A DNA stretch of 29,458 nucleotides from a virus, in IMG/VR virus record IMGVR_UViG_3300031919_000008, positions 1 to 29,458 of that record. One strand, given 5' to 3'. The notes beneath the pieces were generated by a model. That model did no database searches, had not been told where the DNA came from, and worked only from the letters and a program-made list of their open reading frames with translations. This document shows positions 5,456 to 26,058 of the stretch, in pieces. The position numbers and the translations under genes were made by a program. Numbering within the stretch: position 1 is the stretch's first letter; every line of letters begins with the position of its first letter.

Positions 5456-5499
5456 TATAGGCAAATTGGGTAAATGGGGTAGTTTTATACAGGAGTGTG

Positions 5500-6384
5500 A
5501 TGCCGTTGGAAGTAATCAGGTGTACAAAATGCGGCAATTTTGTTTTGGAGGTGAATGGCGGTGAGATGACAGAGCAGAACTTAGGCGGGTGGATCAGCTT
5601 GCACAGGCGGATAAAAAATCACTGGCTGTGGTATGAGCCGAGGAAATTCAGCAAATACGAAGCATGGACGGACATGCTTATGACTGCCAACTATGAGCGT
5701 GGTTGGTGGCCGGCTGGAAAGAGATATGTAGAACGCGGGAACTTCATAGCCAGCGAACCAAAACTAGCATTCCAATGGGGATGGACCAGAAAAGCTGTTC
5801 AACACTTTATAAAAGTGCTGGAAAATGAAGGCATGATTGAACGAATGCCGCGGGGAAAAAAATACACGGAAATAAAAATACTCAACTATGAAAAGTACCA
5901 ACAAGACCCTGAAACAGGGGACAAGTCAGGGGACAAGAGAGGGCACAAGAGAGGGGACAAGCCAGGGGACAAGAGAGGGGACAAGAGAGGGGACAAGAAA
6001 AAGCCAACAAAATCAAAGGATGAGAGTGTGTCAGGGGACAAGTCAGGGGACAAGCCAGGGGACAAGCCAGGGGACAAGCCAGGGGACATAAACAATAAGA
6101 TAATAAGTTTAATAAAAGATTATTCGGAAATGAAGCCCTCAGAGGTTTTAAATCATTTGGTAAAAATGCGGACAGAAAATTCACCAATGGCGGTCAAGAA
6201 ATACGGAACCGGCGCCGTCATAAAGGCCCGGGACAGTTTTGAAGTTGCGTTACATGAAGGTATAAAGCCGGAGCGATTAGCCGAGGCAATACAAAGTAAT
6301 CCCGAGGCGCCACCGTGGGAGATTGTAGATAAGGCAAAGGACCATGTGCTGAACATGCCCATCATTGGGCGCCCAAAAAGGTGA
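5500..6384 (+). CDS. DnaD-like phage replication initiator
   Basis: The segment GGWISLHRRIKNHWLW and the following winged-helix-like region (WTRKAVQHFIKVLENEGMIE) match the N-terminal domain of DnaD/phage replisome organiser proteins. These bind the phage origin and load the helicase. Residues ~140-198 are low-complexity GDK-type tetrapeptides encoded by 12-bp DNA repeats. The C-terminal part (SPMAVKKYGTGAVIKARDSF...) is unique. The start is uncertain: GTG 5497/ATG 5500 has GGAG only 4 bases away, while ATG 5566, which would remove a CTKC knuckle, has GGAGGTG 12 bases upstream. The primase-helicase follows 4 bases after the stop, supporting a replication role. Confidence 0.75.
   Translation: MPLEVIRCTKCGNFVLEVNGGEMTEQNLGGWISLHRRIKNHWLWYEPRKFSKYEAWTDMLMTANYERGWWPAGKRYVERGNFIASEPKLAFQWGWTRKAVQHFIKVLENEGMIERMPRGKKYTEIKILNYEKYQQDPETGDKSGDKRGHKRGDKPGDKRGDKRGDKKKPTKSKDESVSGDKSGDKPGDKPGDKPGDINNKIISLIKDYSEMKPSEVLNHLVKMRTENSPMAVKKYGTGAVIKARDSFEVALHEGIKPERLAEAIQSNPEAPPWEIVDKAKDHVLNMPIIGRPKR
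5916..6092 (+). repeat. two arrays of 12-bp iteron-like repeats: candidate replication origin
   Basis: The 12-bp unit AGGGGACAAGNN occurs seven times head to tail at 5916-5999 (one copy has GGGC) and five times at 6033-6092 (the last one degenerate). A 33-bp spacer separates the arrays. Directly after the second array lies a very AT-rich stretch (about 6088-6130), a plausible unwinding element. Iterons inside the initiator gene next to an AT-rich tract repeat the layout of the lambda O/ori region. Origin function is inferred. Confidence 0.6.
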
Positions 6385-6388
6385 GGAA

Positions 6389-8299
6389 ATGCAAAACAAA
6401 GATTACTGCTACATTGACATAGCATTTAATGGTGTAAATAAGCGAAACAACGTAATAAACATTCGGGAGCTAAAAACACCGGTCGGTTTGAACGATTGCT
6501 ACCGCACCGTCTACCGGTACCCGGACGAGTTTAAGCAGCACTTTGACCGCCTGGGCACCGTGGCCGGCTACAAAGGTTCCTGTTATGCCGACTTCATGCC
6601 GCTGGATATTGATGCCGAAGACTTGACCCATGCTCATGAAGCGGCCCGGGAAGTATTAGAGCGCCTAATGGCTACCTACGACATAGACCTTGCTAACCTG
6701 CGGATATACTTTTCCGGCGCCAAGGGGTTCCATATTATGATACCGGCGCCACTGTTTGGTGGATATGCAAGCCCAAAACTGCCGATCGCATTTAAGAAGA
6801 TGGCCGCGGTCATGCTCCGCGATATTGAGTACGACAGCAGTATTTATGATGTGGTACGACTGTTTCGCTTGACAAACACGGTAAACAGTAAGACCGGCTT
6901 ATACAAGATACCGGTTACCGCGGCCGAAGTGCTACACAAAGAAATGGCCGACATTATGGAGTTGGCCAAAGGTCCGCGAAAATTGGAGTTTATCCCACTG
7001 AACGAGATAGATCCGGCGCCAGTACTAAAAGAGTTATTCGTCGCTAGCATAAGGGGTGGGTCAAAACAGGAACCGGTGCCAACCAATGACGGCCGCCCGC
7101 CCAAAGATGCAAAGCTATGTTATTACGAGTTGATAAAAGGTGTTGAAAGCGGGGAGCGGGATAATGCCGCCATAAGATTAGCCGTATTTTGGCGGAAGCA
7201 TGGCCTACCCGGGGAAGTGATACACGGTATTATGACCGGTTGGAATCGGTTGAATAGCCCACCACTTGAACAGACCGACATTGACAAAGCTGTCCAGCAA
7301 GCATGTAGCCGGCCGTATGACTTCGGGTGCAATGATGACCTATTGCAAAGGTACTGTACTAGCCGGTGTCACTTAAAGCGGCGCCAGAAAGAGAATCGCA
7401 TTACCGCGGCCAACATTTACACCCTGGACGAGGCCCGGGATAAATACCGAGAGTATCTTACGAAGGTGGACCAAAAGCGGATCAGATTTGGTATCCCTAT
7501 GGTGGACAAGGTAATCCGCGGAGTGGCGCCTGGTGAAGTTGCTGTATTGCTGGCCCGATCCGGAGTGGGCAAAACGGCCGCAGCATTAAACCTGATTCGC
7601 AATGTGATAGTGGGGCAAAAGGTACCGGTATTGTTCTATAGCCTGGAGATGCCGGTAGCGCAGATATACGAGCGGATATGCCAGATTTCCGGGGAGATTG
7701 ACGGCCGGCAGGTAGAAAGCATTTACCGCCGCGGTGAGGATGCGGAAGTTTATGAGGTAGCCTGCAAGAACTTTGGCAAACTGTATGTGTGTGACCAGGA
7801 CTTTCTAACCATTGATGAACTGCGCGACTTTTACGAGCTTGCCACCCGGGAAAAGGTTATGCAGGCGCCCGGGTTAATCGTGATTGATTACCTCGGCCGG
7901 ATGAAGGGCGGGCACGGATCCAGTTATGAGATAACTAGTGAGCTAGTTAAGAACATGAAGAATTTAGCCAAAGAATTAGATGTCGCCGTTGTTTATCTGC
8001 ATCAAACATCACGCGAAGGTGGTACCGGTAAAGAACCGGTCACCATAAAAATGGCCCGGGATAGTGGGCAGGTTGAAGAATCGGCCGACTATGTGGTGGG
8101 CATGTGGCGGCCGGAGCTAGAGCAGTCATATGACAAGGAAGAAGAAGAGATGATGTGGGGATTTTTGAAGGTGCGTAACGATGGAAATAAACAGGTTAGC
8201 TTGCGATTCCATAAAAAGTATTTGACTATCACCGAGTGGGACGCGATTAAAACGGCCGAAGTTATACCGTTTAAGGAAGGAGAGTTGCCTTTTGATTGA
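6389..8299 (+). CDS. AEP-type primase fused to DnaB-like replicative helicase
   Basis: The N-terminal half carries archaeo-eukaryotic primase motifs: the metal-binding PLDIDAED at residues 68-75, the SGAKGFHIMIP motif near 110, and RLFRLTNTVN. A PriCT-like region and a Cys cluster (YCTSRC, near 328) follow. The C-terminal half is a DnaB/RecA-fold helicase with Walker A LARSGVGKTAAAL (about 388-400), the SLEMP motif, and Walker B LIVIDYLGR. One protein therefore both makes primers and unwinds DNA at the fork. ATG 6389 is preferred over TTG 6365 because AAGGTGAGG sits just before it. It lies directly downstream of the initiator, in the same operon. Confidence 0.85.
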   Translation: MQNKDYCYIDIAFNGVNKRNNVINIRELKTPVGLNDCYRTVYRYPDEFKQHFDRLGTVAGYKGSCYADFMPLDIDAEDLTHAHEAAREVLERLMATYDIDLANLRIYFSGAKGFHIMIPAPLFGGYASPKLPIAFKKMAAVMLRDIEYDSSIYDVVRLFRLTNTVNSKTGLYKIPVTAAEVLHKEMADIMELAKGPRKLEFIPLNEIDPAPVLKELFVASIRGGSKQEPVPTNDGRPPKDAKLCYYELIKGVESGERDNAAIRLAVFWRKHGLPGEVIHGIMTGWNRLNSPPLEQTDIDKAVQQACSRPYDFGCNDDLLQRYCTSRCHLKRRQKENRITAANIYTLDEARDKYREYLTKVDQKRIRFGIPMVDKVIRGVAPGEVAVLLARSGVGKTAAALNLIRNVIVGQKVPVLFYSLEMPVAQIYERICQISGEIDGRQVESIYRRGEDAEVYEVACKNFGKLYVCDQDFLTIDELRDFYELATREKVMQAPGLIVIDYLGRMKGGHGSSYEITSELVKNMKNLAKELDVAVVYLHQTSREGGTGKEPVTIKMARDSGQVEESADYVVGMWRPELEQSYDKEEEEMMWGFLKVRNDGNKQVSLRFHKKYLTITEWDAIKTAEVIPFKEGELPFD

Positions 8300-23342: not shown

Positions 23343-23567
23343 TTGGGATTTCTAAGTAAGATTATTGACAAAACCGGAGCTTATTTTTGGAATATTAATT
23401 CCGATGGATCTGCTGATGTTCAACTAACGGGCAGTATAATGGAACAATTCGGTGCAACTATCGCGGATAGGCCAGCGGCAAATTCCGTCCCTGTTGGGGC
23501 GACATTTATGATAGTTGGCACTACAGACGCATGGCAGAGTAATGGTACTGATTGGGTGGTGATGTAA
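23343..23567 (+). CDS. small structural protein upstream of the variable protein (74 aa)
   Basis: TTG 23343 abuts the previous stop, with GGAGGGGG upstream. The segment IADRPAANSVPVGATFMIV and the ending WQSNGTDWVVM are typical of short beta-structured pieces of phage fibres. The stop overlaps the start of the DGR target gene by one base (TAATG), so the two are translated together and may associate physically. No family name is certain. Confidence 0.6.
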   Translation: MGFLSKIIDKTGAYFWNINSDGSADVQLTGSIMEQFGATIADRPAANSVPVGATFMIVGTTDAWQSNGTDWVVM

Positions 23568-24928
23568 TGGGTGCAACCGATACAATGCTAATGAATAGAC
23601 GTATCAATGAGTTAGATAGAGGACTTGATTACAAAGCACCTATCTTTGGGGTGTATTGGGATAAAGCATCATCTCCCGTTCTGACTCGTACCCATGACGC
23701 TGTTGGTATGTCTGCCGCGATTGGGATAGATGGTCTGTGGGTACAAAATGATTTTGACGGTGCTCCAATATTTGGTCAAATAGGGGACGAAAAAGACGAT
23801 TTAGGCAATGTGTTTTGCCGCATACCACGTCTTTATATACGAAAAACAGATGGGCCGGATTTTAAAACATGGGCAGTAACTACTAGACCGTTACCAGGGT
23901 TTTATTTACCTTCGGTTTATTATGATTTTGCCAAGGACAAACCTTTGCTTTATTACGATCATGGCAAATATAAAGCATCACTTAGTCAAGATAGCAAACT
24001 GGAATCTAAACCCAATTTTTACCCCTTAATTAACAAAAATATTGTTGATTTTAGGAGCTATGCACAGGCAAATGGTAAAGGTTATCAGCAACTTGATATC
24101 CATGCTGTAGACATATTACAGACTTTGTTTGTGATTGAATTTGCAACATTGAACAGTCAGTCGATTATGCAGGGATTTACGGCAGGGCAACTTAGTGATA
24201 CCCACACGGCTGTAATATCCGAATTAGGCGTAAACAGGATTGTAGTTGATAATGCCATAGCAGGCAACTACAGAGTAGGGCAAACAATATCTGTAGGTTC
24301 ATTACTAGGCAACAATAGTGTATTTTATGGTCGGACAATAACAGATATTCAGGTTGATACTCCAGGAGTAGGGCAATCAGCAATAGTGTTTGATGGCGAC
24401 CCAGTTAATATTACGTTAGGAGATTGTGTTTATAATACGGGCTGGAAAAACGGATTTAGTGCTAGCATTGCCGCCAGTAGTGGTTGTATTGGTGCAAATG
24501 ACGGGAAATACCCCTGTATGTACCGTGGCATAGAATCACCTTTCGGTGATGTTCGGCAGTTTGTAGATGGTGTAAACATAAATGAATTACAGGCGTGGGT
24601 TGCTAAGAACGCCGAGGATTACGCCAGTAACGTATTTGCCAATCCGTATGAAGAACTTGGATATGTAAATCATAATTTAAGTGGTTACGTGTCCCAGATG
24701 GGTTTTGATACAGGTTATCCTTTTGCTGAATTTCCAATTGCTGTAGGTGGGGCAAGCGGTACCTACTATTCAGACTATTACTCTCAAGACATAGGACAAA
24801 GAATTGCCCGTGCTGGTGGGAGCTGGAGCAGTGCCTCGTCTGCAGGGTTCTTTTACTGGAACCTGTTCTACTCGTCGGAGAGTGCGCACGTGTACATCGG
24901 CGGGCGGCTTCTTAGAAAACTTCTTTAG
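23567..24928 (+). CDS. DGR variable protein: formylglycine-enzyme/C-lectin-like tail or head-fibre adhesin (453 aa)
   Basis: ATG 23567 overlaps the upstream stop (TAATG). The C-terminal half has the FGE-sulfatase/C-type-lectin-like pattern of phage DGR targets: PCMYRGIESPFGDVRQFVDG (about 320-339), then the variable end GGSW...AGFFYWNL...IGGRLL (417-449). Within 24804-24914 the codons vary from a downstream template mostly at adenines: 15 residues (415, 419, 421, 422, 425, 428, 430, 434, 435, 439, 441, 443, 446-448) differ at sites carrying template-adenine changes. Trp420, Trp431 and Asn432 are kept. This is how DGR proteins diversify a binding face on a stable fold. Position between capsid and neck genes suggests a receptor-binding fibre or capsid-borne adhesin. 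Confidence 0.88.
   Translation: MGATDTMLMNRRINELDRGLDYKAPIFGVYWDKASSPVLTRTHDAVGMSAAIGIDGLWVQNDFDGAPIFGQIGDEKDDLGNVFCRIPRLYIRKTDGPDFKTWAVTTRPLPGFYLPSVYYDFAKDKPLLYYDHGKYKASLSQDSKLESKPNFYPLINKNIVDFRSYAQANGKGYQQLDIHAVDILQTLFVIEFATLNSQSIMQGFTAGQLSDTHTAVISELGVNRIVVDNAIAGNYRVGQTISVGSLLGNNSVFYGRTITDIQVDTPGVGQSAIVFDGDPVNITLGDCVYNTGWKNGFSASIAASSGCIGANDGKYPCMYRGIESPFGDVRQFVDGVNINELQAWVAKNAEDYASNVFANPYEELGYVNHNLSGYVSQMGFDTGYPFAEFPIAVGGASGTYYSDYYSQDIGQRIARAGGSWSSASSAGFFYWNLFYSSESAHVYIGGRLLRKLL
24804..24914 (+). repeat. DGR variable repeat (VR)
   Basis: This is a 111-bp segment at the 3' end of the adhesin gene. It matches the template repeat at 25005-25115 (offset 201) with 24 mismatches and no gaps. Eighteen of these fall where TR has A. 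The 3' end keeps ATCGGC, then differs at four close positions (24902, 24906, 24908, 24909), consistent with IMH versus IMH* ends in known DGRs. Confidence 0.93.
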
Positions 24929-24935
24929 CGGGGGT

Positions 24936-24956
24936 TTGGGGGCGGCCAGCCCCCAA
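24936..24956. promoter_or_regulatory. DGR hairpin/cruciform after VR
   Basis: A perfect 8-bp inverted repeat, TTGGGGGC / GCCCCCAA, with loop GGCCA starts 21 bases after the end of VR and 7 bases after the adhesin stop codon. No T-run follows, so it is a poor terminator. Known DGRs carry a similar small hairpin just after VR that promotes homing of the mutated copy. Confidence 0.7.
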
Positions 24957-25004
24957 GTATATATTTCGAGGTAAGGATTTAAAATAGGGTTTTAAGGTGC
25001 ACGC

Positions 25005-25115
25005 TTGCCCACGTTGGTGGGAACTGGAACAATGTCTCGAATGCAGGGTTATTTAACTGGAACCTGAACAACTCGTCAGGGAATGCGAATGTGAACATCG
25101 GCAGGCAGACTCTTA
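25005..25115 (+). repeat. DGR template repeat (TR), non-coding
   Basis: This 111-bp copy of VR lies 90 bp after VR in the same orientation. Read in the VR frame it encodes mostly Asn (AAC/AAT) at the variable positions: GGNWNNVSNAGLFNWNLNNS. Adenine-rich AAY codons are the hallmark of DGR templates, since adenine mutagenesis there can give many residues but no stop. No ribosome site or start makes it a gene of its own. Confidence 0.93.
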
Positions 25116-25122
25116 TTAGTAA

Positions 25123-25131
25123 TGTTATAAT
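25123..25131 (+). promoter_or_regulatory. extended -10 promoter just after TR
   Basis: TGT-TATAAT (TGn plus consensus -10 at 25126-25131) lies 8 bases after TR; no -35 is visible. It would drive the 77-aa gene at 25163. No equally clear promoter is seen before TR, although A/T-rich TATATT and TAAAAT lie at 24958-24990. Confidence 0.5.
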
Positions 25132-25162
25132 ACAAATAAAGCGAGAAAGGTGATAAGTAATT

Positions 25163-25396
25163 ATGCCAAAGCAAAAATACGGAATTATTGAAAACGGTCA
25201 ATTAATCATTACAGGTGAGAATTTAGTTGGAGCAAAGCCGATAGTTTATGAAGACGTGCCAGAATTCAACCAAACAACACATTATGCTAAACAGCAGACA
25301 CCTGTAGACGCAGGAAATCACATTTTTATGGGTGTTGAGTTGCACAAAATGGAAGTGTCTGAAGGATGGCCGAGTGAGGATTTCTTGTTTGAGTAA
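25163..25396 (+). CDS. hypothetical small phage protein after TR (77 aa)
   Basis: GAAAGGTG lies before ATG 25163. The product begins QKYGIIENGQLIITGENLVG and has the style of small accessory proteins of phage tail regions (an 'ENGQL...GAKPI' start, then acidic ending). It does not look like Avd, the helical accessory protein of DGRs, which is longer and basic. The function is unknown. The following 152 bases up to 25548 hold no gene; they contain a CCTGG/CCAGG inverted repeat. Confidence 0.6.
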   Translation: MPKQKYGIIENGQLIITGENLVGAKPIVYEDVPEFNQTTHYAKQQTPVDAGNHIFMGVELHKMEVSEGWPSEDFLFE

Positions 25397-25548: not shown

Positions 25549-26058
25549 ATGGCACGAAGAAAAGAACCAGCAAAAGTTTGGATAGAAGGTAGTCTTATTA
25601 AGATTTTACCTGTTAATTCAAATGAAGTATACTTCACTGATTATGACCCCGTCATATACCAAAAAGCAATTGGCGTTAGATGGCGAGTAATAAATAATGG
25701 TTATTTACAAGGATGGGTCGATAAAAAATTCGTCCTTTTTCATTACCTAATAATCGAGCGGAAAAAAGGTTTCCTTTGTGACTATGCCAACAGGAATAAA
25801 AAGGATAATACGAAGGAAAACCTTCGACATGTCACAAGAAGCGAAAGCGGTATTAACAGAAACAAACAATCAAGTAATAAATTTGGCTATGTAGGAGTGT
25901 TTTGGGTAAAGAGGAGAAACAGGTGGCAAGCGAATATAAGGGTTAACGGTGAAAGGGTTTACTGGGGCTATTTTAAAGACGCTAAAAAAGCACATGAAGC
26001 GTATTTAAAAGCAGTCGAAAAATTTTACCCTGGAATTTTGGTTAAAAAGCCAGCTTAA
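25549..26058 (+). CDS. HNH-AP2 homing-type endonuclease (169 aa)
   Basis: The N-terminal part is HNH-like: VLFHYLIIERKKGFLCDYAN and NTKENLRHVTRSESGINRNK give the H...N...H layout of HNH_3 enzymes. The C-terminal AP2-like DNA-binding domain reads YVGVFWVKRRNRWQANIRV and WGYFKDAKKAHEAYLKA. Such genes are mobile and spread by cutting alleles that lack them. GGAGGGG lies before ATG 25549. It sits in the DGR region in the place where a reverse transcriptase would often be found, and may have inserted there. No intron is recognised around it. Confidence 0.85.
   Translation: MARRKEPAKVWIEGSLIKILPVNSNEVYFTDYDPVIYQKAIGVRWRVINNGYLQGWVDKKFVLFHYLIIERKKGFLCDYANRNKKDNTKENLRHVTRSESGINRNKQSSNKFGYVGVFWVKRRNRWQANIRVNGERVYWGYFKDAKKAHEAYLKAVEKFYPGILVKKPA

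Follow-up and report, generated by a model that had tools for sequence, protein, structure and literature searches.

In the window, the whole 29,458-bp viral contig analysed here, a gene for a tail adhesin is followed by a pair of repeats and by traces of a diversity-generating retroelement (DGR). The following features were placed:

23567–24928, plus strand: DGR target gene, encoding a tail adhesin of 453 aa with a predicted C-terminal DGR variable-protein (C-type-lectin-like) domain (PHROG 5302, AlphaFold2)
24804–24914, plus strand: variable repeat (VR), covering about codons 415–449 of the target gene
24936–24956, plus strand: GC-rich hairpin 3' of the target stop, TTGGGGGC-GGCCA-GCCCCCAA, with an 8-bp stem
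25005–25115, plus strand: template repeat (TR), complete, with Asn-rich codons
25111–25119, plus strand: TCTTATTAG, the 5' strand of a conserved stem that pairs with CTAATAAGA in relatives; the partner strand is absent in the window
25120–25137, plus strand: deletion junction region, at which ~1.1 kb of spacer RNA and reverse transcriptase (RT) is missing as judged by the distance from TR to small ORF, with the breakpoint placed only to within the region
25138–25191, plus strand: stub of the RT gene, its last 17 codons and stop (KARKVISNYAKAKIRNY, stop), recognised by an RT-tail profile
25163–25396, plus strand: small gene of 77 aa that follows RT in intact loci, its start overlapping the RT end; homology by synteny
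25549–26058, plus strand: HNH/AP2 homing-endonuclease-like gene (PHROG 99, E 5e-29; weak Pfam HNH_3 and AP2 matches)

The endonuclease-like gene lies directly downstream of the DGR scar and outside the DGR. Elsewhere in the window, positions 1–336 hold long low-complexity Ala/Asp/Arg repeats (AARDAAWDAS...) with several frames open, and positions 5888–6091, inside the ORF at 5497–6384, hold repeats encoding (K/R/P)GDK units.

The target protein matches the tail protein family PHROG 5302 (E 2e-43), and its relatives are mostly 46–61% identical to it. Its AlphaFold2 model (pLDDT 87) has a sole PDB match at E ≤ 0.001, TaqVP, the Thermus aquaticus DGR variable protein (5vf4; E 8e-10, prob 1.00), with Mtd variants ranking weakly behind. 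TaqVP is the best structural match at 12–14% sequence identity and belongs to a different system. The model and this match support the C-lectin/FGE-like fold that the initial annotation had assigned to the C-terminus, in the form of a variable-protein fold, and this fold together with the PHROG 5302 match supports a phage adhesin as the target. The VR sits in the 3' end of what the model predicts to be a gene for a C-type-lectin-like variable protein. Behind the target stop, the hairpin has by itself an unremarkable folding energy (z -1.5); comparable hairpins occur at the equivalent place in RT-bearing relatives, and hairpins after the VR have a role in retrohoming (PMC3240598).

VR and TR, a pair that was also recovered blind, are 111 nt each and align without gaps. 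Computed alignment and tabulation by TR base reproduced the counts of the initial annotation exactly: of 24 mismatches in all, 18 fall on the 31 TR adenines and 6 on the remaining 80 bases. Rather than being spread evenly over the bases, the mismatches are concentrated at adenines (hypergeometric p = 4.9e-8), where A>G accounts for 8 changes, A>T for 6 and A>C for 4; all six mismatches at other bases are transitions. In frame, the TR codons are mostly AAC/AAT and the VR has Ser, Tyr, Phe or His there, as had also been proposed. One of the six non-adenine mismatches is the difference at the 3' boundary (IMH/IMH*; CAGACT in TR, CGGCTT in VR), which L001 and L008 share. Of 28 RT-bearing loci (median 2), all but one have fewer than six such mismatches; the outlier is L007, with a full RT and 10. 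As a date of RT loss these mismatches were rejected, as the difference is suggestive only (Mann-Whitney p 0.013, 4 degraded loci versus 28) and L007 bears an RT. The 10 mismatches of L007 compare with 1 in its 94% identical relative L058, an excess that possibly comes from VR recombination.

Relatives of the target protein were gathered from viral contigs and genomes, with five genome records that are Bacillota or so labelled (Alkalihalobacillus, Salirhabdus, Scopulibacillus, an uncultured Bacillus and a Firmicutes MAG). In 24 relatives, target, VR and TR are followed by a structured spacer RNA of ~120 nt, the RT, and then the small gene overlapping the RT end; the full-length RT open frame of these 24 contigs begins 108–137 nt after TR. 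Five of the RTs were aligned, all with IGNYTSQ and YVDD motifs, and their profile has the solved RT 8ub7, presumably the BPP-1 DGR RT, as its best match (E 1e-33). In those intact relatives that were inspected, no apparent avd gene separates VR from RT. The small ORF as query found no relatives, and its homology was established through synteny instead; a role as DGR accessory protein was rejected, since the gene is present in loci without TR or RT.

The window differs from these loci immediately 3' of TR. No RT was found next to TR or elsewhere in the 29,458-bp contig by PF00078 (RVT_1) or by the relatives' own RT alignment, a point absent from the initial annotation; the same PF00078 search detects an RT in 6 of the 11 first relatives. 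The distance from the TR end to the start of the small ORF is 47 nt, versus 1138–1148 nt in five RT-bearing relatives. TR is followed by TTAG (4 nt), with which the 5' strand of the conserved stem ends, then by ~18 AT-rich nucleotides and then by AAAGCGAGAAAGGTGATAAGTAATTATGCC..., which reads as KARKVISNYAKAKIRNY and a stop in the RT frame. Scored with a profile of 23 RT tails, this stub reaches 23.0, the top value among 58,804 six-frame windows of the contig (next independent value 9.9), and it matches the RT tail of L034 at 30 of 34 nt. An RT remnant thus lies at the place expected of a decayed DGR, in synteny with the intact relatives. This comparison indicates that an internal deletion of ~1.1 kb took everything between TR plus 4 nt and the last 17 RT codons. 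Retention of the stub is probably due to its overlap with the start region of the small gene, likely including that gene's ribosome-binding site; the same overlap probably explains why the right-hand breakpoints of degraded loci do not pass the RT tail.

The deletion also removed a structured RNA. One structure, in which a 9-bp stem encloses two hairpins, is common to the TR-RT spacers of 23 relatives (L001, L003, L006 and 20 others); the stem pairs the 3' edge of TR (TCTTATTAG) with CTAATAAGA near RT, at the spacer end, and compensatory changes are found in 9 of the 19 pairs of this RNA. A covariance model gives 61–144 bits in spacer-keeping loci outside model building, including L032 and L059 with their broken RTs. 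The spacer RNA is absent from the window, where only the two ends contribute to the model's score of 12.8 bits (E 1.6). A search of Rfam, which did not take in the relatives' spacers, gave no match. The BPP-1 spacer has two functions, recruitment of the RT-Avd complex and priming of the cDNA (PMC12875486). By analogy, the TR of the window should be dead even with an RT supplied in trans, because its spacer is gone and the BPP-1 spacer serves both steps.

Other relatives show comparable damage of different extent. The RT of L047 carries a frameshift near codon 17, for which a sequencing error is also possible. L059 has TR, spacer and an RT of which the first ~17 and the last ~45 residues are left, and L032 has TR, spacer and RT fragments. 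All three are also present in L086, a named-strain assembly of Scopulibacillus, which is the same as L032 in the compared part of the target. After the stage of the window, with TR and RT stub, come a TR fused to the tail region (L071), half a TR fused to the RT tail (L029, L005) and a VR fused to the RT tail (L019). L053, L066 and L070 have a VR with a TR-type 3' end as in L071, which is expected under recombination between VR and TR. In L004, L024, the L041 group, L046, the L048 group, L062, L072 and L075, the VR is followed by the small gene, without TR or RT. The junctions differ among L059, L032, L029, L005, L019, L071 and the L053/L066/L070 set. A target-protein tree, built without the VR region and with L047 entered as RT-bearing, has about 11 RT-state changes, at least 6 of them forced by well-supported branches, its bootstrap being not fully settled. 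As read from these junctions and this tree, the RT was lost many times independently in related phages.

Two side observations concern this set of loci. In L046, an endonuclease-like ORF (6466–7143) is inserted between VR and small gene, in the former TR-RT slot. The 61-kb contig IMGVR_UViG_3300025154_000095 (L053, L061) carries two target copies with different VRs and no RT.

VR variation was compared between close relatives with and without RT. L035 and L039, which have identical TRs and an intact RT, differ at 20 of 111 VR sites, all of them TR adenines, and at 0 of 875 sites outside. This pattern indicates that the DGR of this pair is active and diversified its VR recently. The VR does not differ at all within either of two RT-less clusters (L041-L045; L048/L050/L052/L056), whose members show 1–5 differences elsewhere. 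Between the two clusters there are 7–12 differences outside the VR and 12 within it, which is compatible with variation made before the loss.

Taken together, the locus is very probably what remains of a phage DGR, now probably inactive, after the loss of ~1.1 kb with the spacer RNA and the RT. The initial annotation had described a genuine DGR that diversifies a phage adhesin. The adenine bias and the target fold bear out the DGR origin; the missing RT and spacer RNA and the visible deletion junction speak against present function. In the past, the RT would have reverse-transcribed an RNA of TR and its 3' spacer, making errors at adenines, and this cDNA would have taken the place of the VR, so that the tail adhesin varied at its lectin-like tip. 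A deletion in the lineage of the window would then have taken out nearly all of the RT along with the structured spacer RNA, after which VR and TR would have drifted and the adhesin would have been left with one fixed binding surface. In the phage of the window, activity has thus probably been lost and specificity fixed.

It is improbable that the DGR still works with an RT encoded elsewhere, in a missing part of the genome, a prophage or a co-infecting phage, that keeps copying TR into VR. TR, VR and hairpin are all complete, the contig is a fragment of a phage genome, and DGRs whose target genes lie far off have been described (PMC4891356). However, the spacer RNA that follows TR and in BPP-1 recruits the RT complex and primes the cDNA (PMC12875486) is gone, and TR and VR have diverged at non-adenine sites. 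Moreover, Pfam RVT_1 finds no further RT in any of the 19 RT-less or RT-truncated virus records, which may themselves be fragments. The single RT of the Scopulibacillus genome lies in a 609-aa frame and is probably that of a group II intron.

Even less credit can be given to an assembly artefact, in which DGR-bearing and DGR-less variants were joined or the assembler was misled by the repeats and skipped the RT. The junction is known from one contig, as no near-identical contigs were found with TR 30-mer, junction 32-mer, target 28-mer and portal protein queries, and a direct repeat pair is close by. But the junction lies downstream of TR, outside the repeat, the RT stub has substitutions of its own, and similar yet distinct deletions recur in many contigs from independent assemblies, among them the named-strain Scopulibacillus L086. 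An ordinary duplication with chance A-rich divergence that was never a DGR would fit the absence of RT and can be dismissed: the adenine bias (p = 5e-8) and the RT stub speak against it, and the relatives, with VR, TR and RT at orthologous positions, refute it.

The remains of the DGR resemble the Bordetella BPP-1 type (mtd-avd-TR-brt). The window shares with it a 3'-terminal VR in the target, an IMH-type 3' boundary, a hairpin after the VR, a TR ~200 bp downstream and adenine-specific VR/TR differences; its relatives add an RT after TR and a structured spacer, the RT being closest to 8ub7. It differs in that the window is without RT and spacer RNA, and the inspected intact relatives are without an apparent avd between VR and RT. 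Treponema denticola is a described case of DGRs gained and lost while target genes stayed behind (PMC4891356); there, target genes with adenine-biased VRs likewise persist after RT loss. Those isolates lack RT and TR, whereas the window keeps a complete TR and a visible RT stub; therefore, the deletion itself can be read. Our literature search, which is weak evidence given its partial journal coverage, found no description of such a deletion series in phages.

About 18 RT-less or RT-truncated lineages stand against 24 RT-bearing contigs. RT loss could be a recurrent and selected "lock-in", in which the DGR finds a receptor, the RT and finally the TR are discarded, and the evolved adhesin is kept; we put this forward tentatively, as an idea that we doubt more than we trust.

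VR/TR pairs are easily taken as proof of an active DGR. At the locus of the window, the adenine bias outlasts the machinery, and therefore RT and spacer RNA need to be checked. The phage family forms a graded series from an active DGR to no trace of one, along which the target gene serves as a shared phylogenetic marker. Therefore, the rate, route and consequence of hypermutation loss are directly testable in phages.
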